Assembly (NCBI GenBank): GCA_017544265.1
Contig: JAFYEM010000024.1
Span: forward strand, 1 to 32,892
Reading direction: 5' to 3'
Length of the DNA stretch: 32,892 bases
Source: Bacteroidales bacterium
GTDB taxonomy: Bacteria > Bacteroidota > Bacteroidia > Bacteroidales > UBA932
The stretch's first letter is position 1; each line of letters starts with the position of its first letter. Of the stretch, positions 1 through 8,229 are shown piece by piece. The notes under the pieces were generated by a model, which was not told the origin of the DNA, ran no database searches, and worked only from the letters and a program-made list of their open reading frames with translations. Made by a program: the position numbers and the translations under genes.

Positions 1-630
1 CTGGATCGTGGCTTTGGTCATCGGATAGAAATAGGTCTTGTTGGCGCTACCGCCGCCCTTGGCGACCATCACGAAGCGGTACTCGTTGCCCTGGGTGGCT
101 TCGATGTCGATCTGGGCGGGAAGGTTGCACCTTGTGTTGACCTCGTTGTACATATCCAGGGGAGCGTTCTGGCTGTAGCGCAGATTCTCCTGGGTGTAGC
201 AGTTGAAGACGCCTCGGCTCAATGCCTCCTCGTCCTCGAAGTCCGTCCATACGTGCTGTCCTTTTTCGCCGTGGATGATGGCCGTGCCGGTGTCCTGGCA
301 GAACGGCAGCACACCCTTTGCGGCGGTTTCCGCGTTGCGAAGGAACTGCAGGGCGACATATTTGTCATTCTCGGAAGCCTCTGGATCCTTCAGAATGGCC
401 GCGACCTGAAGGTTGTGCGAGCGGCGCAGCATGAACTGGCAGTCGTGGAAGGACTGCTGTGCGACCAGGGTCAGGGCCTCCGGGGAAACCTCGAGTATGG
501 TCTTGCCTCCGCAGCCGCAGTGTCCGCCCAACTTTGAAGACTTTACGAGTTTCTCCGAACCCGGAATCTTGTAATATTCAGTGGTATCCTCGCCCAACTG
601 AAACATCGGTGCATATTTAAAATCAGGCAT
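1..630 (-). CDS. fum: Fumarate hydratase class I, N-terminal part (partial, runs off left edge)
   Basis: This gene is read on the minus strand from an ATG at 628-630; 210 codons are inside the window with no stop, so the C-terminus lies outside. The product would interconvert fumarate and malate in the cytoplasm with a [4Fe-4S] cluster. The translation begins [20 protein letters not shown]. It carries the class I fumarase signatures PFCQDTGTA, whose Cys is the first cluster ligand in the family, and [10 protein letters not shown] near the window edge. Class I enzymes are about 540 aa, so roughly 40 percent is visible. The stop of the Schlafen-type gene at 665 lies 34 bp upstream on the same strand, and no clear -7 box is seen in that gap, so read-through from upstream is possible. 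Family assignment is very secure. The paralogue letter (fumA/fumB) is not assigned. Confidence 0.95.
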
Positions 631-664
631 TTGGGTATGTGTTAATCGTTTGATATCAGAATAA

Positions 665-2116
665 TTATTTGGCATAGTAGCCACCAGTCTTCTTAGAATC
701 TCGATGCTCAATGAGATTCTTTTCAATAAGTAAAGCTATATGTCTGCTGATAGTGGCAGGAACACGCCCCGAACGGGTAACAATGTCCTTTCTCTTGATT
801 CCAGGATTAGTTTTTATCAGATTATATGTTGCAAGAATCGCCTGGCTTAATGTCTCATTTAATGTCTCATTTAATGTCTCATTCGATGAGTTATTATTAT
901 GAGCCGTTAAGTGTGGCGTGAGCGGCTCTTTGAACCGAATTGTCAGGCAAACAAAGTTCGGAATGCTCTCAAACTCAGGCTTCGGGAGGCCTGCAGCCTT
1001 GCATTCGCCATAAATGTCCGGAATACCACGGCCCCAAGCTTCCATCAGTCCGCTCTTGAAGAAAACATTGGAGATGACTTCGTTGATAGGTTCTGAGTGC
1101 GGACGTTTCCGGAAATCCTCGGCAGTGGTTCCAGGAGGGAAGAAGCCGGGATTCATAAACTCTATGCGGTCATCGAATATGGCGACGCTTGGAGTTCTGG
1201 CACCGGACCACCATGTGCGATGGACCAGCAGGTTCAGGGTTGCTTCCCGGAGAGCCTTGATGGGGACTGTAAGTGTGTCGATGCGCTCAATCTGATCCAT
1301 ATTCCCTGCCAGAAACATATGCTTCTGACAGAATTCTATGATGGCATCATACTGCTCGAATAGGTTGCCGTAACAGACCTTCTGGTCACGGAACTTATCC
1401 ATGTCGGTTCCCTCAAAGCGGGCAAGACGGACTTTGCACTGGGTGAACTCCCTGTTCGGCGTTTTACCGCAGAGTACTACGGCGCCGTTGGTCAGTAAGC
1501 CGTCTGCCGTGCGGAGGCCAAGGTGGTCAAGTTTTGCCAAACGGTTCATGAGACGGCTGGCCTCACGGGGGATGCGGCCTTTGTTGATGCCGGAGAGGAT
1601 GATATCGTCGAGTGTTTTAGCACTGATACCGTTCACGTCAACATCCGGGCAAGGGGACTTTTCCCAACTGAACTTCTTGGGATTGCTCAGGCGGATGCGC
1701 TCCTCGAACATCTCACGGGGCATTATGGACGTGGTGTTTTCAACTTTGTAGTACGGCCGGTTGTCGTAGGTATAAGGCGCGGCAAATCCATCGGGCGCCG
1801 GGAACCGGATGGCAATAACCTTCTGATTCGGCCTGCCGGGAACATCGATGTACTGAGCCGCCAAGTCGATGGCGGGAGTGAACTTGCGCATCTCTCTGGC
1901 AATCTCTTGACGCGTCTGGTCGGCGACATCCTGCCCAAGAATCTTCAGCGTCTTTGGATGAATGCCGAAAAACAACCAACCGCCTTCGGTGTTGAGGAAA
2001 GCGCAGCCTGACTGCATACCGGAGACAATCTCACCGGTAGTCTTCTTGGCCTCCATCACGCGGTTCTCATCACGGTGAAGGATGGTCTCTATGTCCTGAA
2101 TCGTCAGATCCTTCAT
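665..2116 (-). CDS. AlbA_2/Schlafen-type ATP-binding regulator with C-terminal winged helix
   Basis: This is a protein of 483 aa. The N-terminus has the divergent AlbA_2 (Schlafen AAA_4) pattern [13 protein letters not shown]...[14 protein letters not shown]. The middle has the HATPase_c_4 region ([11 protein letters not shown]..., then [13 protein letters not shown]). The last 60 residues ([21 protein letters not shown]) look like a winged helix. Family members are annotated as transcriptional regulators or as RecG-like helicases and are frequent in defence islands. The ORF is open back to 2149, but I start at ATG 2116 ([11 protein letters not shown]) because a strong promoter -7 box occupies 2137-2144 inside the longer version. 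A three-fold NETL repeat sits between the ATPase part and the winged helix. It is the gene nearest the fumarase edge of the island. Biological role unknown. Confidence 0.85.
849..884. repeat. Three tandem 12-bp units coding [12 protein letters not shown]
   Basis: Three consecutive 12-bp units (AATGTCTCATTT, twice exact and once with a final C) lie inside the Schlafen-type gene. On the minus strand they encode NETL three times, in the linker before the winged helix. The unit length is a multiple of three, so gain or loss of a unit would change linker length without breaking the frame. Confidence 0.9.
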
Positions 2117-2136
2117 GGCATCAATTTCCAACCTAA

Positions 2137-2168
2137 CAAAGATAGCCAATCCGTCTTACCTTCGCAAA
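2137..2168 (-). promoter_or_regulatory. Bacteroidetes-type promoter for the Schlafen-type gene
   Basis: On the minus strand TTTG (2165-2168) is followed by a 20-nt spacer and TATCTTTG (2137-2144). This is a full match to the Bacteroidetes consensus TTTG-N19-21-TAnnTTTG. It predicts a transcript start near 2130 and therefore supports the ATG at 2116. Confidence 0.75.
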
Positions 2169-2185
2169 TCTTTTGTGAAGATTTG
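2165..2185. promoter_or_regulatory. Perfect palindrome overlapping the -33 element (possible operator)
   Basis: CAAATCTT, 5 nt, AAGATTTG is a perfect 8-bp inverted repeat. Its left arm contains the -33 box of the Schlafen-type gene, so a protein bound here would block that promoter. Autoregulation by the downstream winged-helix protein is an inference. The palindrome lies 49 bp past the exonuclease stop and could also form an RNA hairpin, but there is no T-run after it in that direction. Confidence 0.5.
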
Positions 2186-2234
2186 TTTGACTTATGAGTT
2201 AGTGTCCATGGGAAATATTATTGATGGTTGGAGG

Positions 2235-2729
2235 TTACAGGAGCTTCATCGCAATATAAGCACACGCCTCTGCATCGGCCAGTGCATGGTGATGATTCTC
2301 GAGATTGTATCCGCAAGCTGCTGCAACGGTCTGTAGCTGATGGTTGGGCAAACTGTCGCCATAATATCTCCTGGAGACGGCCAGCGTATCGTAGAACTTG
2401 TAATCAGGATAGTCCATCTGGTACACTTTGAAGACCTCCTTCAGGCACCCCTCATCGAAAGGACTATTGTGTGCCACCAGTGGAAGGCCTTCAATCATCG
2501 GGGCTATCTTTTCCCATACAAACGGGAATACCGGTGCATCCTCTGTGTCTTCTTCCGACAGTCCATGAACCTGCTGGCAAAACCACTGGTAATACTCCGG
2601 TTCCGGATGTATCAGGCTGTAGAATGAATCCACAATTTCCCCGTTCCGGACGATGACCACACCCACACTGCAGACGCTGCATCGGCACTCGTTAGCAGTC
2701 TCAAAATCTATCGCTGCAAAGTCTTTCAT
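2235..2729 (-). CDS. DEDDh 3'-5' exonuclease (DNA polymerase III epsilon-like)
   Basis: This is a 164-aa single-domain exonuclease of the RNase T/DnaQ superfamily. The DEDDh residues are all visible: D8 and E10 in AAIDFETAN, D92 in AHNSPFDEG, and H147 with D152 in HHALADAE. The family cleaves single-stranded nucleic acid from the 3' end with two metal ions. There is no polymerase or other fused domain, so it is a freestanding enzyme rather than replicative DnaQ. Its ATG overlaps the stop of the WYL gene by 4 bp (2726-2729), so the two are translationally coupled and probably work together. Three cysteines near the N-terminus (ECRCSVC) are typical of Bacteroidetes members. Substrate (DNA or RNA) cannot be told from sequence. 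Confidence 0.9.
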   Translation of the reverse strand: MKDFAAIDFETANECRCSVCSVGVVIVRNGEIVDSFYSLIHPEPEYYQWFCQQVHGLSEEDTEDAPVFPFVWEKIAPMIEGLPLVAHNSPFDEGCLKEVFKVYQMDYPDYKFYDTLAVSRRYYGDSLPNHQLQTVAAACGYNLENHHHALADAEACAYIAMKLL

Positions 2730-3637
2730 CGACTGTACTGTTCAGACATATAGGCAACAGCGTCCTTGATTTCTTGCCTGAAATCCTCTGGGCTCAGCAC
2801 CTCCACATCCGGTCCCCAGCTCATGATTTCTTTTTTGAAATCGTGTGTCGGCGCCAGGTGGTATTTGTATACCGTGTACTCCTCGTCGGATTCTTCCTCA
2901 ACCTTCTGCTGGGAGATATGCAGCGGCAATGTGTCAAAGTATCTCACTTGGCTATTCACAACCTTGATTTTGACCTCCTGGGGCTCCCAATCAGTTCCGA
3001 TGATAACGCCAAAGTAGTTGGAGAAGAACTCCTCCGCATCGAATTTCTTGGGTATAGAATACTTTTCTTCAGTCTGGACGACATTAATCATCCTTTCATC
3101 TAAGGCGTATATCCACAAATCATCTACCCCAGCACTTGTGGCTAGCATATACCAGCGCTGTTTGAACAGTTTAAGGCAATACGGATATGCTACAAATGTG
3201 GACTCCTCATCTCTCCAGAAACTCTTATAGGTTATCTCGATGGCCTTCCTATAGCGCATGGCGTTGACTATGGCAGAAAGCCATTTCTGCGAAGATGGAA
3301 TCTTTTCTAAGAGAATTCTGTTTCGCATATCCCTAGTCTCATTAAGAAGGTTGTTAAGCGACAGAGACTCCAGTAGCCACTGACGTATATCGTCACCCTC
3401 TAGGTCATCAGTATTAGCAATGTAATAGCCCAGCGAGCGGTCGCACTTGATCTCGATACGGAAAATGTCATAAATCGCATCAAGATGATTGAAGAATGTA
3501 CGCTGCGGCAGTCTCTCGCGTGTCTTGTTATAGTGACTGAACTGCCAGGAACGGTCGATTTCCTCGAAACTGATGTGCCCACTTCTGTGAACAAGGTCAA
3601 TTAGCCAGATATACCTGTCGAAATAGTTCTTAGCCAT
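2726..3637 (-). CDS. WYL-domain transcriptional regulator
   Basis: This is a protein of 303 aa beginning MAKNYFDRYIWLIDLVHRSG. The first 90 residues or so form a winged helix, with HISFEEIDRSWQFS as the helix-turn-helix region. The central part is the WYL ligand-sensing domain, where LKLFKQRWYMLATS carries WYM in place of WYL, followed by a C-terminal WCX-like extension (PLHISQQKVEEE...). WYL proteins sense nucleic-acid ligands and control defence systems such as BREX (BrxR) and CBASS (CapW), usually as dimers on inverted repeats. The ORF is open to 3685, but a -7 box at 3661-3668 and a TGCC-N7-GGCA site upstream of it place the transcript start near 3655, so ATG 3637 is chosen. It overlaps the exonuclease by 4 bp. 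It is the best candidate regulator of the five-promoter regulon described here. Confidence 0.88.
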   Translation of the reverse strand: MAKNYFDRYIWLIDLVHRSGHISFEEIDRSWQFSHYNKTRERLPQRTFFNHLDAIYDIFRIEIKCDRSLGYYIANTDDLEGDDIRQWLLESLSLNNLLNETRDMRNRILLEKIPSSQKWLSAIVNAMRYRKAIEITYKSFWRDEESTFVAYPYCLKLFKQRWYMLATSAGVDDLWIYALDERMINVVQTEEKYSIPKKFDAEEFFSNYFGVIIGTDWEPQEVKIKVVNSQVRYFDTLPLHISQQKVEEESDEEYTVYKYHLAPTHDFKKEIMSWGPDVEVLSPEDFRQEIKDAVAYMSEQYSR

Positions 3638-3660
3638 AGTCCTTTTTTTTGTTTCACCCG

Positions 3661-3694
3661 CAAAGATAGTTATTATTCCTGCCAAAAAATGGCA
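3661..3694 (-). promoter_or_regulatory. Island promoter 1: TGCC-N7-GGCA operator plus -7 box (WYL-exonuclease)
   Basis: On the minus strand TGCC (3691-3694), seven nucleotides ATTTTTT, GGCA (3680-3683), an 11-nt spacer, then TATCTTTG (3661-3668). The inverted repeat can be read as TGCCA-N5-TGGCA, the most symmetrical of the five copies. No TTTG sits at the usual -33 distance. The site lies within the last codons of the interrupted upstream ORF. Confidence 0.7.
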
Positions 3695-4164
3695 TTTTTC
3701 AGCGATTCTCCATTTAGATAGAGGTCGATTGGCATTTCCGGGTTGAACATGGGGTGTAGAAGTGGCCCAATTTCTTTAATAAACGATTTAGTATCAATCA
3801 GGCGACGACTGTTCTCCTCACCAATTTCAGCCCTAAGCAGCATCCCATCCTGGGCATTGTCGTTTTCCTCAAATACAGATTTATCTTTTCCTCAACCATC
3901 ATTTATCACATAGGTAATTCTATGCTTAACGCCCGCCTTAAAGGCAATGACGATGAATTCTTTCACGCCTCCCTTTTTCAAAGATTCATATTCACTATCC
4001 GCCCTTTTCTCCAGATTCAATAAACTCACATTCTTGAATGATGCGCGAATAGACATGGCTGCTTCAGAAATTCCAAAGACAATACTTGTTACATGCTCCT
4101 CTGTTTCATGTAGTACATCATTAAGGAATCGACAGAGATCTCTCGTTATTTCTAATTGTTTCAT
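3673..4164 (-). pseudogene. Hypothetical ORF of 163 codons interrupted by one in-frame TGA
   Basis: Translation from ATG 4162-4164 gives 90 residues (MKQLEITRDLCRFLNDVLHE..., ending TYVINDG) and then TGA at 3892-3894. The same frame continues without a stop for another 72 codons to TAA at 3673-3675. That stretch is protein-like (GKDKSVFEENDNAQDGMLL...MPIDLYLNGESL...FWQE), so the two halves look like one ancestral protein. A recent nonsense mutation is the simplest reading; read-through or a sequencing error are alternatives. I do not recognise the family. The ORF has its own island-type promoter (4213-4246), and its tail overlaps the operator of the WYL gene, whose ATG lies 35 bp downstream. 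If the TGA is real, the product is a 90-aa protein. Confidence 0.6.
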
Positions 4165-4212
4165 TATTTTCTTGGTTTTTTCTCCGCGCTAACAGTAATA
4201 TTGTTGATGCGG

Positions 4213-4246
4213 CAAAGATATGTGGTAATCGTGCTAAATACTGGCA
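4213..4246 (-). promoter_or_regulatory. Island promoter 2: TGCC-N7-AGCA plus -7 box (interrupted ORF)
   Basis: On the minus strand TGCC (4243-4246), N7 (AGTATTT), AGCA (4232-4235), 11 nt, TATCTTTG (4213-4220). The spacing is identical to the other island promoters; one half site deviates. It predicts a leader of about 40 nt before ATG 4164. It is divergent from island promoter 3, with 30 bp between the two TGCC boxes. Confidence 0.65.
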
Positions 4247-4276
4247 GGAGAATAAAAATGGATTTTTGTTCTTTAC

Positions 4277-4310
4277 TGCCGGATTTTGGCAGAACCGGTT
4301 TGTAAATTTG
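4277..4310 (+). promoter_or_regulatory. Island promoter 3: TGCC-N7-GGCA plus -7 box (AAA+ operon)
   Basis: TGCC (4277-4280), N7 (GGATTTT), GGCA (4288-4291), 11 nt, TAAATTTG (4303-4310). It can be read as CTGCC-N7-GGCAG, a perfect inverted repeat. It lies about 110 bp before the AAA+ start codon and so implies a long leader. Confidence 0.7.
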
Positions 4311-4320
4311 TCGCAAAAAT

Positions 4321-4437
4321 ATGACGTATGGATATATTACCACGAATAGAAAGAGATCTCTAGCCTCAGGAAGGATATTGATTATTGCAATAAAAAACAA
4401 CTCTAAAAACCAAACAATCATATGTATTACGATCTGA
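4321..4437 (+). CDS. Possible 38-aa leader ORF overlapping the AAA+ start
   Basis: An ATG at 4321, only 11 nt after the -7 box of island promoter 3, opens a 38-codon basic ORF (MTYGYITTNRKRSLASGR...). It ends at TGA 4435-4437 and overlaps the AAA+ start codon (4422) by 16 bp in another frame. If transcription begins near 4317 it would be translated from an almost leaderless start and could couple to the AAA+ gene. Nothing beyond position supports it, and it may be chance. Confidence 0.2.
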   Translation: MTYGYITTNRKRSLASGRILIIAIKNNSKNQTIICITI

Positions 4438-5153
4438 ATAAAAGCCTCGTTAAGTCTAGTCTTAATCCGGCATATCGAATGAGCAATTATGTTCAAACTG
4501 ATTATCACTCTTTAGCATATCATTGGGCAGAAGAAATAATCAAAAACCCCGGCGCAAGCACTAATCCATGGCTCCTAATCGGTCGCAAAGGGGCCGGGAA
4601 AACTCATTTAATTCAAGCAGTTGGCAATGAAATCCTAGAATTAGAGCCAAATACCAATGTCCTATATTTGAGTGCGTCAGATTTTGAAAATCTCTATTTG
4701 GATGCTGTTAAAAGCGAACAACTTCCATCCTTTAAAAAGCACTTCTATAGCCTGGATGTCTTAATAGTTGATGATTTGCAGAACATGTCAAACCGAGATG
4801 CTCTAGAAATGCTGATAAAGGTGAAAAGAAATCTTATAAAAAAGCATAAGCAACTCATATTTGCGACTGGCAGCTATGATATTTTTCCGGCTTTCCCGAA
4901 GCAGCGAATATTTACAAATAAGAACTGCTCTGGTTGCTGGTTTGATGATTGGTCTGTGTGGGATGCCCGTCAAATAATAGATAAACTATCGAGCGACATG
5001 CCGGATAAGTATAAAGATTTCTTGGCTCGCATTATGATTGATGATTTTGGTGCTCTTAAGGAGGCTCTTTCCGTTATCAACGCAACACCAGACCCTGATT
5101 ACGAAGCAATGGTGAATTCAATTACGGCCCGTTTCCTAAGTTCGCGTGGGTAA
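4422..5153 (+). CDS. DnaA-like AAA+ ATPase without DNA-binding domain
   Basis: This is a 243-aa protein made almost entirely of one AAA+ module most like domain III of DnaA. Walker A is GRKGAGKTHL at residues 54-63 (compare GxxGLGKTHL of DnaA), Walker B is VLIVDDLQ at 113-120, and a sensor-1-like stretch LIFATGSYD lies near 150. The DnaA domain IV helix-turn-helix is absent, so it resembles Hda- or loader-type helper ATPases more than an initiator. Upstream in-frame codons are closed by TAA at 4404-4406, which fixes the start at 4422 or later. It heads a same-strand block with a coiled-coil protein and a UDG-like protein, and its promoter carries the island operator. Base composition is A+T rich relative to core genes. 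Its partner and role are unknown. Confidence 0.8.
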   Translation: MYYDLNKSLVKSSLNPAYRMSNYVQTDYHSLAYHWAEEIIKNPGASTNPWLLIGRKGAGKTHLIQAVGNEILELEPNTNVLYLSASDFENLYLDAVKSEQLPSFKKHFYSLDVLIVDDLQNMSNRDALEMLIKVKRNLIKKHKQLIFATGSYDIFPAFPKQRIFTNKNCSGCWFDDWSVWDARQIIDKLSSDMPDKYKDFLARIMIDDFGALKEALSVINATPDPDYEAMVNSITARFLSSRG

Positions 5154-5262
5154 GACTTAAGTAGAATCTTTATATCTTTCTTCAATTCAAACAAATTCAC
5201 TAACTTCGCGCATAGTGAGCGTAACACAACCTAATAATAAATTGTTCTTCGTATTTTGACAT

Positions 5263-5574
5263 ATGGCAGCATTTGAAAAAGAACTAAACAAACTTGAAAG
5301 CATCCATAAGCATCTTGAAGAGATATTGGATGAGAGTGTCGATTACAAGTTAACTCAAGAGAAGGTTATTGAAGAGATTGTTGGTATTAAAGACGATCTT
5401 CGCGAACTAAAAGATGTGGCCGGGCTTTTCATGCCGCCATCCATCGTTAATAAGGCGTTAAAACGCATCGAATCGGCGAATCGTCTTATAGCCAGAATTA
5501 GCAGAGAATGGGACCTTCCGGATCCCGCTGCAGAGCGTGCTATGATGTTCCCTAACGGAGAAGAAGATGACTAA
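5263..5574 (+). CDS. Small coiled-coil protein, unknown function
   Basis: This is a 103-aa, strongly charged protein (MAAFEKELNKLESIHKHLEEIL...). It has heptad-like leucines and isoleucines through the first half (KVIEEIVGIKDDLRELKDVAGLF), a second helical stretch (NKALKRIESANRLIARISREW) and an acidic tail (PNGEEDD). There is no signal peptide, membrane segment or metal motif, and I do not recognise the family. It follows the AAA+ gene by 109 bp and precedes the UDG-like gene by 11 bp. An adaptor or oligomerisation partner is plausible from that position but not shown. The 109-bp gap before it contains no clear island-type operator. Confidence 0.65.
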   Translation: MAAFEKELNKLESIHKHLEEILDESVDYKLTQEKVIEEIVGIKDDLRELKDVAGLFMPPSIVNKALKRIESANRLIARISREWDLPDPAAERAMMFPNGEEDD

Positions 5575-5585
5575 TTGTTGACAAT

Positions 5586-6389
5586 ATGGAAAAATCAAAG
5601 AATACTGTTCAGGAGCGATATAGACAATGGAACGACACGTTATATTATCGCTATATTGAAAGCTTTAACGAGGACACTACCATATGGGATGGAGTGGTTA
5701 ATCCAGATGTCTATGCACAATCCCCACTAAAAGTAATGTTTCTCAATCGAGAAGCATATGATCCTGATCCGGAAAACCTTCCGTATGATTTATGTCAAGC
5801 CATACGTGAACGAATTGAGAAAGATGATTGGGTTTTCCCGGGTCAAAACACTCTGCGCACCCATCTAAAGCACTATCTGACAGTACTTGATATGGGGCAA
5901 AATGGGTATCAGGCTCTTTCGGACGATACAGTACGCGAACACGTGCAGTCTGCTGATTATTACGAATTTATAAGGCTATTTGAACGCGTCGCATATTGTA
6001 ACGTCAAGAAGTCTGATGGAAGACCCAAGTCCAGCAAAAGGGATCTCAGAGAATATGCTGAAAAAGGATTAGATACATTGAAAGAACAGATTCTATTCTT
6101 TAATCCTTCGATAATTCTTGCTGGGAACGTTTGCGAAGATATCCTTGATAACCTTTTTGATTGGGGTGACAATCTCTATTGTGATCCTAATCATCGCTTG
6201 AATATCTGGCAGATTAAGATTGGTGAAAGGTTATTCCCATATGTTGATATGTTTCATCCTTCTCTAGTGAAGGGCATGAGCGAGTATTACATTGAGTTAC
6301 TCCACGCCTTACAGGTCGTGGAGAAGGAGCATCCTAGTTTCTGGCAAGATCGGATAGAGAAGACTAAGAACTGTTTCATAACTCAATAA
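5586..6389 (+). CDS. Uracil-DNA-glycosylase-superfamily-like protein (tentative)
   Basis: This is a 267-aa soluble protein. Several stretches sit in the order expected of the UDG fold: a strand then turn near the start (PLKVMFLNREAYDPDPE), FPGQNTLRTHL around residue 85, AYCNVKKSDGRPKSSKRDLR in the middle, the strand ILFFNPSIILAGN, and MFHPSLVKG near the C-terminus in the place of the family HPS motif. Bacteroidetes proteins of this general appearance are often annotated as hypothetical or UDG-family. The classical catalytic GxDPY motif is not visible, so activity may differ or be absent. It starts 11 bp after the coiled-coil gene and ends two bases before the convergent ParE-like gene (3' ends at 6389 and 6392). 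Family call is by eye and needs profile comparison. Confidence 0.45.
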   Translation: MEKSKNTVQERYRQWNDTLYYRYIESFNEDTTIWDGVVNPDVYAQSPLKVMFLNREAYDPDPENLPYDLCQAIRERIEKDDWVFPGQNTLRTHLKHYLTVLDMGQNGYQALSDDTVREHVQSADYYEFIRLFERVAYCNVKKSDGRPKSSKRDLREYAEKGLDTLKEQILFFNPSIILAGNVCEDILDNLFDWGDNLYCDPNHRLNIWQIKIGERLFPYVDMFHPSLVKGMSEYYIELLHALQVVEKEHPSFWQDRIEKTKNCFITQ

Positions 6390-6391
6390 GG

Positions 6392-6997
6392 CTATAGCTT
6401 TACACCATTGAGGATAATCGAAAAGCCCTTATACTTCTCGGCGTATTGCTTGACGATATCATTTACAATCTCCTGTCTGTAGTAGCTATTGGGGAATAAC
6501 TCCTTGTCAAAAGTGAACTTCATCCAGGTGCCGTCAGGCTCCTGATCTTCATCTACTTCGATTCCCTGGTTGTCAAGAACGCCTTTAAAGTACAATGCCC
6601 ATGAACGTTCAGCATTGCGATAGGAATTAATCAGAAACTCCTCAGCGAGGGCGTTGGCCACCTTGTAACCATTCGTGGCAACAACACCCTTTTTGGCGCC
6701 AATCCCAACTGAAAGGCCGCTTGTAGTATTAACTACAGACTTAAGCGGTATCCCTCGTCCATATTCCCTCAAATAAACGACTAGGCTGTTGTTTTCAATC
6801 TCGAGTTCCTTAGCCCATCCCATTTCATACTCGTCTACAGAGCAATCAATGAGGCTTTTAAGAAGGGTGTAGATGCCATCGTCAGGAGATGAACCGTCCC
6901 CAATCTTGCCGATATATTTTTCAACATTCAAGCGAATGTGCTCATACCATTCAAGCGTTTGAACGGTATCTCCATTAGGTTTGTTCGTTGAATCCAT
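6392..6997 (-). CDS. Standalone, degenerate ParE/GyrB-type GHKL ATPase domain
   Basis: This 201-aa protein resembles only the N-terminal ATPase domain of Bacteroidetes topoisomerase IV subunit B. The match runs through LEWYEHIRLNVEKYIGKIGD, DGIYTLLKSLIDCSVDEY, REYGRGIPLKSVV and TNGYKVANAL. TOPRIM and C-terminal parts are missing. The residues that make the domain an ATPase appear lost: the catalytic Glu of EVIDN is Ser (SLIDC), the Mg-binding Asn is Cys, and the GLxGVG ATP lid is shortened to ATNG. It looks like a non-catalytic paralogue that could imitate or bind topoisomerase subunits. It is the second gene of an operon with the zinc-ribbon protein (12 bp gap) driven by island promoter 4. 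Homology is clear; function is inference. Confidence 0.75.
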   Translation of the reverse strand: MDSTNKPNGDTVQTLEWYEHIRLNVEKYIGKIGDGSSPDDGIYTLLKSLIDCSVDEYEMGWAKELEIENNSLVVYLREYGRGIPLKSVVNTTSGLSVGIGAKKGVVATNGYKVANALAEEFLINSYRNAERSWALYFKGVLDNQGIEVDEDQEPDGTWMKFTFDKELFPNSYYRQEIVNDIVKQYAEKYKGFSIILNGVKL

Positions 6998-7009
6998 TGC
7001 CGTCTTATA

Positions 7010-7261
7010 TTAAAGAGCTGGAGAGTGATTCCCTTTACAGAAACCATTAGGATGTTTGGGACATGGCGAATTCGTCATATCGCGAATTGAAGAGAACTGA
7101 CGACCGCAATACTTGCAGGTATACTTGGATTTTTCGCTCCCTTCATAGAGAATATGATTGCCTTTGCAAAAACCATTTGGGTGCTTGGGGCAAGGGGCCG
7201 AAGTTAAAGACCTCACATCGGAGAATTCTCGACCGCAATTAACGCAATAATACTTAGGCAT
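7010..7261 (-). CDS. Tandem zinc-ribbon protein (two copies of one module)
   Basis: This is an 83-aa protein starting MPKYYCVNCGREFSDVRSL. It consists of two near-identical modules of about 33 residues, each CxxCGRxFS followed by CPKHPNGFCKGNH, separated by a short linker. Each module offers two Cys from CxxC and further Cys/His ligands for one zinc ion, so two metal sites are likely. The ORF is open to 7453, but the upstream part is poor coding sequence and contains the operator and -7 box of island promoter 4, so ATG 7261 is used. It precedes the ParE-like gene by 12 bp. A nucleic-acid or protein adaptor role is likely for such ribbons; none is proven. Confidence 0.75.
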   Translation of the reverse strand: MPKYYCVNCGREFSDVRSLTSAPCPKHPNGFCKGNHILYEGSEKSKYTCKYCGRQFSSIRDMTNSPCPKHPNGFCKGNHSPAL

Positions 7262-7293
7262 ATGCTTGAACTGTTTAACTATGAATTTTGCTA

Positions 7294-7327
7294 CAAATAA
7301 AGCCAATCTGGCTGCAATAATATGGCA
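7294..7327 (-). promoter_or_regulatory. Island promoter 4: TGCC-N7-TGCA plus degenerate -7 box (zinc-ribbon/ParE-like)
   Basis: On the minus strand TGCC (7324-7327), N7 (ATATTAT), TGCA (7313-7316), 11 nt, TTTATTTG (7294-7301). The spacing is exactly that of the other copies, but the second half site and the -7 box each deviate by one base, so it is the weakest of the five. The 11-nt spacer is itself palindromic (GCCA-GAT-TGGC). Confidence 0.5.
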
Positions 7328-7390
7328 GTGTTGTGATTTTTCTCCTCCAAATTTACCTTTTTTTGTGTATTTATAAAAAATATTGCTCAC

Positions 7391-7424
7391 TGCCACATTT
7401 TGGTAGTCAGATTCTATATGTTTG
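7391..7424 (+). promoter_or_regulatory. Island promoter 5: TGCC-N7-GGTA plus -7 box (261-aa gene)
   Basis: TGCC (7391-7394), N7 (ACATTTT), GGTA (7402-7405), 11 nt, TATGTTTG (7417-7424). It is divergent from island promoter 4 with 63 bp between the two sites. It predicts a short leader before ATG 7444. Confidence 0.65.
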
Positions 7425-7443: not shown

Positions 7444-8229
7444 ATGGGAACAAACAAAAATACCATGTATATCCGCTCGCTGGATGAAGCCCAGCTGAAG
7501 GATGAGGTAATCAATATCGAGTCACGCATTCTTGCGATTACCCATGACCCCATTGACTTCCATAATCTTCGGCCATTCCTGGATTGGTGCGGGGACAAGA
7601 AAGCCTTAGAATCTGTCCAGGACATGATGGGATACCGCAAGTTCATCCTGGACACTCTGTTTGCCAAGCACTGTACCGAGGCTGAAATAGAACGGCTGGA
7701 GAAGGTCAATAGTCTGCTGTTGGAACTGACAAACCGAACCTACAAGCGCACGGCCGATTTATTCAGAGCTTTGATTGCCATGCCGAAGGACGAACTGGAC
7801 GATGACTACGAGATTGAAGGGAGCCTCGTTCCGGAATTCGACACCGTAGACTCTACGCTTCGTCTGGAAGAAGACCCATACTACGGCTCTGACTTTACGA
7901 GGATGGCCGCCATACTGCAGGAGACTGAGAAATACCTCCTTGATTTTGCACAAGTTAGGCCTGTATGGTCTTCTGAAGCCGAATATACTCCAACGATGAG
8001 TGACAAAGAATTGGGGTGCGAGCTCCCCCTTGATGATGGCACCAGCTGGGCAGAAGGTCCTCTTCACAATCCTAAACTGAAGCACATTACAATTTGCTAT
8101 GCGCTCCACGATCTGTGCACGCATATGAACTTCTCAATCCCAGATATCCTGAGGATGAACGACTTCAAGGTTGAAGTGAAGCTTACTGTTCAACAGTTCT
8201 CTGATCAAGATCGTAAACGACTCAACTGA
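7444..8229 (+). CDS. Hypothetical 261-aa protein, unrecognised
   Basis: This is a soluble, acidic, mostly helical protein beginning MGTNKNTMYIRSLDEAQLK. I find no catalytic motif, signal peptide or membrane segment. Recognisable stretches are only descriptive: a helical N-terminal half (ALESVQDMMGYRKFILDTLF, IERLEKVNSLLLELTNRTYK), an acidic middle (DDDYEIEGSLVPEFDTVDSTL) and a conserved-looking C-terminus (HITICYALHDLCTHMNFSIPD, then DFKVEVKLTVQQF). The ORF is open from 7333, but island promoter 5 (-7 at 7417-7424) lies inside that extension, so ATG 7444 is preferred; ATG 7465 is also possible. It is the last island gene before the GH20 gene. Codon composition is closer to core genes than to the A+T-rich AAA+ block. 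Confidence 0.75.
   Translation: MGTNKNTMYIRSLDEAQLKDEVINIESRILAITHDPIDFHNLRPFLDWCGDKKALESVQDMMGYRKFILDTLFAKHCTEAEIERLEKVNSLLLELTNRTYKRTADLFRALIAMPKDELDDDYEIEGSLVPEFDTVDSTLRLEEDPYYGSDFTRMAAILQETEKYLLDFAQVRPVWSSEAEYTPTMSDKELGCELPLDDGTSWAEGPLHNPKLKHITICYALHDLCTHMNFSIPDILRMNDFKVEVKLTVQQFSDQDRKRLN

Follow-up and report, generated by a model that had tools for sequence, protein, structure and literature searches.

A shared operator and -7 promoter architecture as the candidate switch of a WYL regulator island in Bacteroidales

Introduction

What could place a set of otherwise unrelated island genes under common control? The question is raised by a stretch of 32,892 nucleotides (nt) from a Bacteroidales bacterium of the UBA932 lineage (GenBank assembly GCA_017544265.1, contig JAFYEM010000024.1, positions 1 to 32,892; hereafter the window). 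An island within it encodes a WYL-domain transcription regulator, and the promoters of this gene and several neighbours had been predicted to share one arrangement: a TGCC half-site, 7 nt, a GGCA-like half-site, 11 nt, and a -7 promoter element. We put at roughly two in three the probability that a damage-sensing WYL activator substitutes for -33 recognition at these promoters and drives the island genes as one regulon, a reading built on sequence comparison and on analogy with characterized WYL activators. DriD/PafBC-like WYL control would then operate in a new phylum and a new promoter language, as the shared switch for exchangeable island genes. A search by title and opening of the abstract, in a literature collection without most subscription papers, found no description of this WYL/island promoter system.

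Five island promoters share one architecture

The original prediction listed five copies with fixed spacing, and all five were recovered exactly with the pattern TGCC-N7-NGYA-N11-TNNNTTTG, which has five matches in the window, as compared with a mean of 0.01 and a maximum of 1 in 100 dinucleotide shuffles. The copy in the WYL-gene promoter (3661..3694, minus strand) consists of the operator TGCCATTTTTTGGCA with half-site GGCA, followed after 11 nt by the -7 element TATCTTTG; the WYL start codon lies 23 nt downstream. A divergent pair is formed by the copy at 4213..4246 (minus strand; operator TGCCAGTATTTAGCA, half-site AGCA, -7 element TATCTTTG), 48 nt upstream of the start codon of an open reading frame (ORF) of 90 amino acids (aa), and the copy at 4277..4310 (plus strand; operator TGCCGGATTTTGGCA, half-site GGCA, -7 element TAAATTTG), 111 nt upstream of the start codon of a DnaA-like ATPase gene. 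The second pair comprises the copy at 7294..7327 (minus strand; operator TGCCATATTATTGCA, half-site TGCA, -7 element TTTATTTG), located 32 nt before the start codon of a zinc-finger gene, and the copy at 7391..7424 (plus strand; operator TGCCACATTTTGGTA, half-site GGTA, -7 element TATGTTTG), located 19-22 nt, depending on the choice of ATG, before that of a gene for a 260-aa protein. Each copy thus directly precedes and faces an island gene, and four of them form two divergent pairs, as had been described. The regulator's own promoter was also correctly said to carry the most symmetrical copy, which fits TGCCA-N5-TGGCA at 10/10 positions; the other four fit at 9/10 each.

The organism's own genome (1,867,360 bases in 65 contigs, 90.5% complete) contains the pattern five times, always in the island, with no sixth copy outside it, and the reversed pattern, used as a control, had no match there. 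The nearest orthologous islands retain the sites, with five in L066, five in L067 and three in L068.

The architecture recurs at WYL loci

For comparison, 40 stretches were fetched, 38 for a WYL match and two (L104 and L105) for their sites, together with 80 named loci that were the best 80 of at least 580; all carry a Bacteroidota label of some rank except one "uncultured bacterium". The main spacing counts refer to the 118 WYL-chosen loci, without the window, L104 and L105. One genome may give two loci (for example L066 and L176); sequence duplicates were removed in the spacing and own-gene counts and kept in other tallies. The genome sets used below were sampled from larger groups, and their related members are not independent.

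Palindromes of the form TGCC-N7-GGCA were scored without requiring a -7 element. Among 117 distinct examples, 82 had T[AT]NNTTTG at exactly 11 nt; no other distance between 0 and 40 nt accounted for more than three, and 27 had no -7 element within 40 nt. When the distance was fixed at 11 and the spacing between half-sites was varied, a spacing of 7 occurred 83 times and spacings of 3-6 and 8-13 occurred 0-1 times each. Including the window, L104 and L105, the corresponding figures were 88/126 and 89. Palindromes of any sequence (at least 5/7 positions complementary) were also sought upstream of 108 distinct WYL genes, one of which, L146, had been found via its site; 48 fell in this register, as compared with 0-5 at each of twelve other shifts.

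The presence of a site upstream of the WYL gene itself, scored with a relaxed pattern, varied with identity to the window protein. It was found in 17/19 homologues at 60% identity or more and in 20/29 at 50-60%, giving 37/48 at 50% or more (window included in the first and last counts), and in 11/33 at 45-50%, 4/7 at 40-45% and 0/20 below 40%. The outer bases of the half-sites differ between WYL subgroups yet stay complementary (CTCTGCC/GGCAGAG, AACTGCC/GGCAGTT, CTGTGCC/GGCACAG, TTATGCC/GGCATAA), with the geometry constant. This is the pattern to be expected if the outer letters are set by the regulator and not by the core promoter. Proteins encoded downstream of the sites fell into 59 clusters, the largest of which was the WYL gene itself (23 loci).

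Wider searches delimit what the motif can be used for. A WYL homologue (E<=1e-20) is present in 142/299 genomes of the family, and symmetric motif copies were seen by eye beside WYL genes. The loose pattern of the original prediction matched at least once in 211/299 of these genomes; judged by sequence, much of this is chance, and the reversed control also gave scattered matches, so that, by itself, the loose pattern lacks specificity outside the genome of the window. A strict palindrome search of 250 genus genomes matched 92. The 150 strict matches listed comprise 59 extended to GGCACA (class B, described below) and 91 not so extended (class A plus noise). Of these 91, 39 are found no more than 15 kb from an island-type WYL gene, in neighbourhoods that cover at most roughly 0.5% of the genus sequence searched, and 24 lie elsewhere in a WYL-bearing genome, some on other contigs of fragmented assemblies. 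Among the matches listed, 2 of the 59 class B sites are near an island-type WYL gene.

The operator occupies the -33 region

The loci contain 292 TAnnTTTG promoters, 229 without a palindrome and 63 with one. In the palindrome-free set, TTTG was found at a spacing of 19-20 in 29 promoters and at 18-22 in 35, which is the expected position of the -33 element. TTTG at 18-22 occurred in 0/63 palindrome promoters and in none of the five window copies, none of which has the canonical -33/-7 spacing of about 19-21 nt; the original prediction had pointed this out for the five, for which it is a description only, since the operator letters largely exclude TTTG there. The 7-nt spacer is asymmetric: TTT abuts the promoter-proximal half-site, immediately before GGCA, in 92/124 cases in the WYL-chosen loci, and the mirror-image AAA follows TGCC in 4/124. 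Since a symmetric dimer needs no T tract, the tract may bend the DNA, or sigma may read a displaced TTTG.

The proposed binder of all five sites is the 303-aa WYL and WCX transcription regulator encoded at 2726..3637 on the minus strand (Pfam WYL 2.4e-11, WCX 1e-11, both above the cut-offs). The N-terminal approximately 100 aa of its family are conserved in the alignment, and a Pfam scan gave no helix-turn-helix match in that region. In a profile search of PDB structures with the island WYL family, the best matches were PafBC (2.4e-13) and DriD (1.2e-10), with CapW at 0.0018 and BrxR at 0.18. By these profile scores, as distinct from a tree, the island protein is nearer to the activators PafBC and DriD than to the repressors CapW and BrxR.

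According to the available text of a preprint (PMC12340889), DriD of Caulobacter crescentus is a WYL activator with the consensus ATACGAC-N7-GTCGTAT at one fixed distance from the -10 element; the -35 element lies at the centre of the site and matches its consensus at 1-2 of 6 positions, activation occurs by polymerase contacts, and the regulon promoters are dispersed (didA, bapE, recJ, dnaG and an operon divergent from driD). The island resembles this system in its WYL regulator, in half-sites 7 nt apart, in a site over the -35/-33 region at one distance from the -10/-7 element of several dispersed promoters, in the poor -35 and in a T-rich spacer adjoining the promoter-proximal half-site. 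When the three printed DriD promoters were aligned, the spacers read CGTTTCT, CTCTTCT and CGTTTCT, and a G is invariant 13 bases after the first base of the right half-site. If this is the authors' conserved G-14, the DriD -12 position would lie at distance 15, as in the island, a tentative placement given that the bapE site was chosen from two equals. DriD differs from the island in its half-sites (ATACGAC/GTCGTAT), phylum, promoter language and chromosomal setting, and the ligand and mode of activation proposed for the island are borrowed from such relatives.

In mycobacteria, PafBC and SiwR are reported to be WYL activators that act at about -26, between the -35 and -10 elements, on a DNA-damage signal; sigma adaptation has been demonstrated for PafBC and suggested for SiwR, whose site is an imperfect 19-bp palindrome (PMC11804915, PMC10693628). 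In contrast to the island system, PafBC acts as a heterodimer whose PafB subunit alone reads the promoter; the PafBC and SiwR half-sites also differ, and the available text of these reports describes neither as the shared switch of an exchangeable island. CapW is a WYL repressor of a phage-defence operon, with operators that overlap the -10 element (PMC9122588), and BrxR is a WYL repressor whose R-BOX1, with a 5-bp spacer, lies downstream of the predicted promoter (PMC9122601). As far as these two accounts extend, the island shares with them a WYL regulator, palindromic operators and an association with phage-defence islands or operons; they differ in that CapW and BrxR repress, have weak profile similarity and place their operators otherwise, and all five window sites end 11 nt upstream of the -7 element, not over it or downstream of the promoter.

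Invariant spacing, DriD-like geometry and a closest solved kinship to PafBC and DriD are the reasons why we lean to activation. In the mechanism that we favour, a WYL dimer would bind TGCC and GGCA, flanking the position at which sigma would otherwise read the -33 TTTG, with the half-sites about 34-37 and 23-26 bases before a transcript start predicted from the -7 element. With operator letters in place of the -33 element, RNA polymerase would depend on the regulator and require the fixed 11 nt to TAnnTTTG. Activation might proceed across the -35 region as for DriD or by sigma adaptation as for PafBC. By analogy with both, the WYL domain probably binds, as its signal, single-stranded DNA (ssDNA) that arises through damage or phage attack. 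A site also precedes the WYL gene itself, which would be subject to positive autoregulation; the exonuclease, the ATPase-domain proteins and other island products would be switched on together.

A variant site is found upstream of recA

The extended form TGTGCC-N7-GGCACA-N9-TANNTTTG (class B) was detected with at most one mismatch in 109/250 genus genomes; the reversed control gave 1 among the matches listed. Class B (TTGTGCC-N7-GGCACAA) keeps the same 11-nt register. It lies upstream of recA in L107, L111, L168, L170, L258-L261, L267, L270, L271 and L276, and precedes a WYL gene in L146. Since relatives place this variant upstream of chromosomal genes including recA, we conclude that the architecture is a promoter type of a WYL subfamily and occurs both on the chromosome and in islands. 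The sigma-54 reading of the CA-extended class was rejected by eye, the spacing being off by one base from the consensus.

A second WYL gene is located directly after recG in L128, L130 and L135, where RecG scored above the cut-off; other loci look alike by eye. This recG-side gene (E<=1e-80) occurs in 137/250 genomes, namely in 95/109 with class B versus 42/141 without (Fisher 1.7e-20, a value overstated because kinship is ignored). Fourteen genomes have class B and lack the recG-side gene; some of these are incomplete. We then compared 15 genomes picked for both the gene and class B with 15 lacking the gene, two of the 30 having no recA match. Class B was upstream of recA in 8/14 genomes with the recG-side gene (9 counting a site in G288) versus 0/14 without it, where all 14 WYL-bearing genomes had been pre-picked for class B somewhere. 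Among the copies of the recG-side gene examined, none had a class A site in its own promoter. Neither this gene nor class B was found in the genome of the window, which also has no match to TTGGCACNA-N8-TANNTTTG.

That the recG-side WYL protein controls recA is a testable proposal raised by these sequence associations. Both groups of Bacteroidetes LexA are reported to be absent from Bacteroidales, and the non-canonical LexA proteins of the phylum are described as S24-family repressors with GGA-N5-TCC or CTAA-N5-TTAG operators (PMC8565304). Class B resembles such systems in placing palindromic operators before DNA-damage genes; the island motif TGCC-N7-GGCA differs from the LexA operators given in the available text, which speaks against a LexA regulon, in a comparison made by motif and not by a window scan for LexA motifs. 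The recG-side protein and its putative operator would thus be a candidate regulator and site for recA in an order for which that source reports neither LexA group. It is quite possible, if short of probable, that Bacteroidales mount a DNA-damage response through WYL activators, in which the recG-side protein would drive recA and a small ORF, and island paralogues would share the sigma-replacing geometry with outer half-sites of their own, so that ssDNA made by phage or damage induces swappable cargo as one regulon.

The small ORF is of one kind and about 40-50 aa long, and follows class B in 12/30 loci L146-L175. It resembles MNTENTLSGLSTMFTSEASYRTLVDLI... and stands just after the site in L151, L152, L154, L155, L158, L162, L163, L165, L167, L172, L173 and L174. 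The gene beyond it seems to be on the opposite strand, and the ORF is a candidate damage-induced small protein.

Alternative explanations

Several observations weigh against an activator-driven island regulon. The own-gene site is missing in 11/48 WYL homologues at 50% identity or more, in 25/40 at 40-50% and in 20/20 below 40%, some of which are in operons, and 28/91 of the non-GGCACA palindromes among the matches listed are in genomes without an island-type WYL gene at E<=1e-55. Conservation at distant homologues of the other island genes is mixed, with a site in 3/12 distinct upstream regions for the 260-aa protein and 8/13 for the zinc-finger protein. The lack of TTTG at 18-22 is largely forced by the operator and hence no independent test, as TGC[CT] at that place precludes it at spacings 20-22 and nearly so at 19. 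TTTG is moreover present inside the palindrome at spacing 14 in 43/63 promoters and might be a shifted -33; 17 ordinary promoters also have it at 14, of which at least half resemble degenerate site copies by eye. The printed DriD promoters fit the -10 consensus at distance 15 in 8/21 positions, with higher fits at 10 (12), 20 (10) and 13, 14, 16 and 21 (9 each). Among the window genes between 2235 and 8229, strong PADLOC matches were obtained only for the exonuclease and the regulator. Finally, a repressor operator that forms part of the core promoter could likewise produce a fixed spacing.

This last point leads to the proposal that the WYL protein is a repressor like CapW or BrxR, which would cover the -33/-7 region in uninfected cells and be released when phage or damage is signalled. 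Repression of defence operons by WYL proteins is established (PMC9122588, PMC9122601), the palindrome overlies the -33 region with an internal TTTG from which a basal promoter could exist, and autogenous sites fit negative feedback equally well. The reported operators of CapW and BrxR, however, overlap the -10 element or lie downstream, whereas a single upstream register holds for 82/117 palindromes here, and both proteins score far below PafBC and DriD in the profile search; we regard repression as unlikely, though as the likeliest of the alternatives. The original prediction had allowed for either an activator site that replaces the -33 element or a repressor site that overlies it, and the spacing, the DriD-like geometry and the PafBC/DriD kinship tilt the choice toward the former. 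We think it very unlikely that another regulator binds the palindrome and that WYL genes are merely frequent neighbours. The palindromes in genomes without an island-type WYL gene would suit such a regulator, as would the circumstance that the WYL-site link is one of sequence, but the WYL gene is the largest downstream cluster and the outer half-sites change with its subgroup.

A general promoter type of the genus, set by a sigma factor or a widely used regulator and simply used by the island, would account for class B sites in so many genomes, upstream of recA and other chromosomal genes. It was rejected for the genome of the window, where all five matches (5/5) are in the island and class B was not found, and in relatives the variant forms a separate class that tracks the second WYL gene; we give this possibility hardly any weight. 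We think it just as improbable that the repeats are recombination sites for cargo swapping, with promoter position secondary. The alignment with two relatives (G084 and G195) does stop at 3698, 4 bases past the WYL operator, and the DNA at 3699..5192 is different; every copy, however, faces a gene with its -7 element at exactly 11 nt, which recombination sites would not need, and the drop in identity to the relatives begins within the WYL coding sequence and not at the site. The idea of one regulon tied to the island WYL regulator is supported by the uniqueness of the sites in their own genome, their retention in orthologous islands and the proximity of sites to WYL genes in the genus, with the qualification that the architecture is not private to islands. 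Under the activator reading, the code TGCC-N7-GGCA-N11-TAnnTTTG would allow unlabelled, partly defence-like Bacteroidales genes to be found and assigned to a regulator, and would suggest that WYL activation of the DriD kind is found across phyla whose promoters differ greatly.

Island genes and exchange of cargo

Judged by gene spacing and counting same-strand followers, the regulon of the five sites may comprise nine or ten genes. The WYL promoter may also serve a 164-aa DEDDh-type 3'-5' exonuclease (2235..2729, minus strand; RNase_T 4.7e-18, with PDC-S48 and DEDDh models), whose start overlaps the WYL stop, and perhaps an AlbA_2/HATPase_c_4 protein of 494 aa by the ORF list (665..2149, minus strand), which begins 85 nt after the exonuclease gene and is possibly in the same operon. 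An exonuclease homologue is present in 78/121 loci and immediately follows the WYL gene in 53/121. The 90-aa ORF (3892..4164, minus strand) has no assigned function and no homologue in the other loci of the 121 (tblastn E<=1e-8). Divergent from it is the gene for a stand-alone DnaA-type AAA+ domain protein of 243 aa (4422..5153, plus strand; Bac_DnaA 2e-30, DnaA structures 2e-21), found in no other locus of the 121. Its possible followers are a 103-aa ORF with no assigned function (5263..5574, plus strand), retained in G084 and G195, and a 267-aa ORF with no family match (5586..6389, plus strand), retained in G195 at 61% identity. The two-zinc-finger protein of 83 aa (7010..7261, minus strand; C2H2/zinc-ribbon matches) may share its promoter with a stand-alone GyrB/ParE-type GHKL ATPase domain of 201 aa encoded 12 nt after it (6392..6997, minus strand; GyrB structures 5e-9, PRK05644 1.4e-13, under the model cut-off). 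The 260-aa protein (7447..8229, plus strand) has no family match in profile searches, and PHROGs and NCBIfam searches gave no identity for it or for the 267-aa protein, whose likeness to uracil glycosylases, a guess made by eye, received no support from profile searches. The DnaA-type (4422-5153) and GyrB-type (6392-6997) ATPase domains are each encoded alone, with the remainder of those proteins absent.

In blastn comparisons, G084 and G195 align with window positions 1-3698 and 6380/6391-8230 (79-91% identity). Of the intervening DNA, the segment at 3699..5192 is matched in neither genome and marks exchanged cargo, while 5193-6392 matches G195 at 72% and G084 matches only 5261-5575. The corresponding stretch of both relatives also bears a divergent site pair, which in G195 faces ORFs of 106 and 111 aa. 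Compared with L066 and L067 in steps of 60 bases, the WYL gene (2726-3637) has a mosaic structure: identity is 83-100% in the sensor half and the exonuclease gene and 52-78% in the DNA-binding half. Relatives with a diverged DNA-binding half have almost the same sites at 7294 and 7391. The DNA-binding half and the adjoining cargo thus appear to have been replaced together, with operator recognition retained.

At other loci, the cargo extends to IetA-like AAA ATPases (one cluster in 13 loci, of which 4 were scanned), a PDC-S26 nuclease (one cluster in 3 loci, of which 1 was scanned) and GmrSD/HEC-06-like proteins. A PADLOC model was matched by 12 of 19 distinct hand-chosen proteins; the remaining 7 had no match. 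Because of this resemblance to PADLOC models, the swappable island cargo would be in part defence-like. A Cas3-like gene in L124 (G278) and a cytosine-methyltransferase-like gene in L122 (G149), both named by eye from protein starts, also have palindromes of the type described here in front of them. L125 (G286:C45) has a divergent class A-like pair and comes from a genome that gave no WYL match at E<=1e-20; as this contig is short, the assembly may lack the gene.

One WYL subgroup (L069, L071, L073, L075) has a GC-rich hairpin with a run of U's behind it, placed between the class A promoter and the start codon of the WYL gene; this is a possible attenuator. Leader attenuation was set aside, as the hairpins of three leaders fold only modestly better than shuffles (z -1.6, -2.1 and -1.1). 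The GC content is 37-45% over approximately 3-8 kb and 49-59% in the remaining kilobases of 1-16 kb, with one exception at 45%. The right flank of the island carries a glycoside hydrolase family 20 gene and prfB, and prfB is also near the island in G084 and G195.

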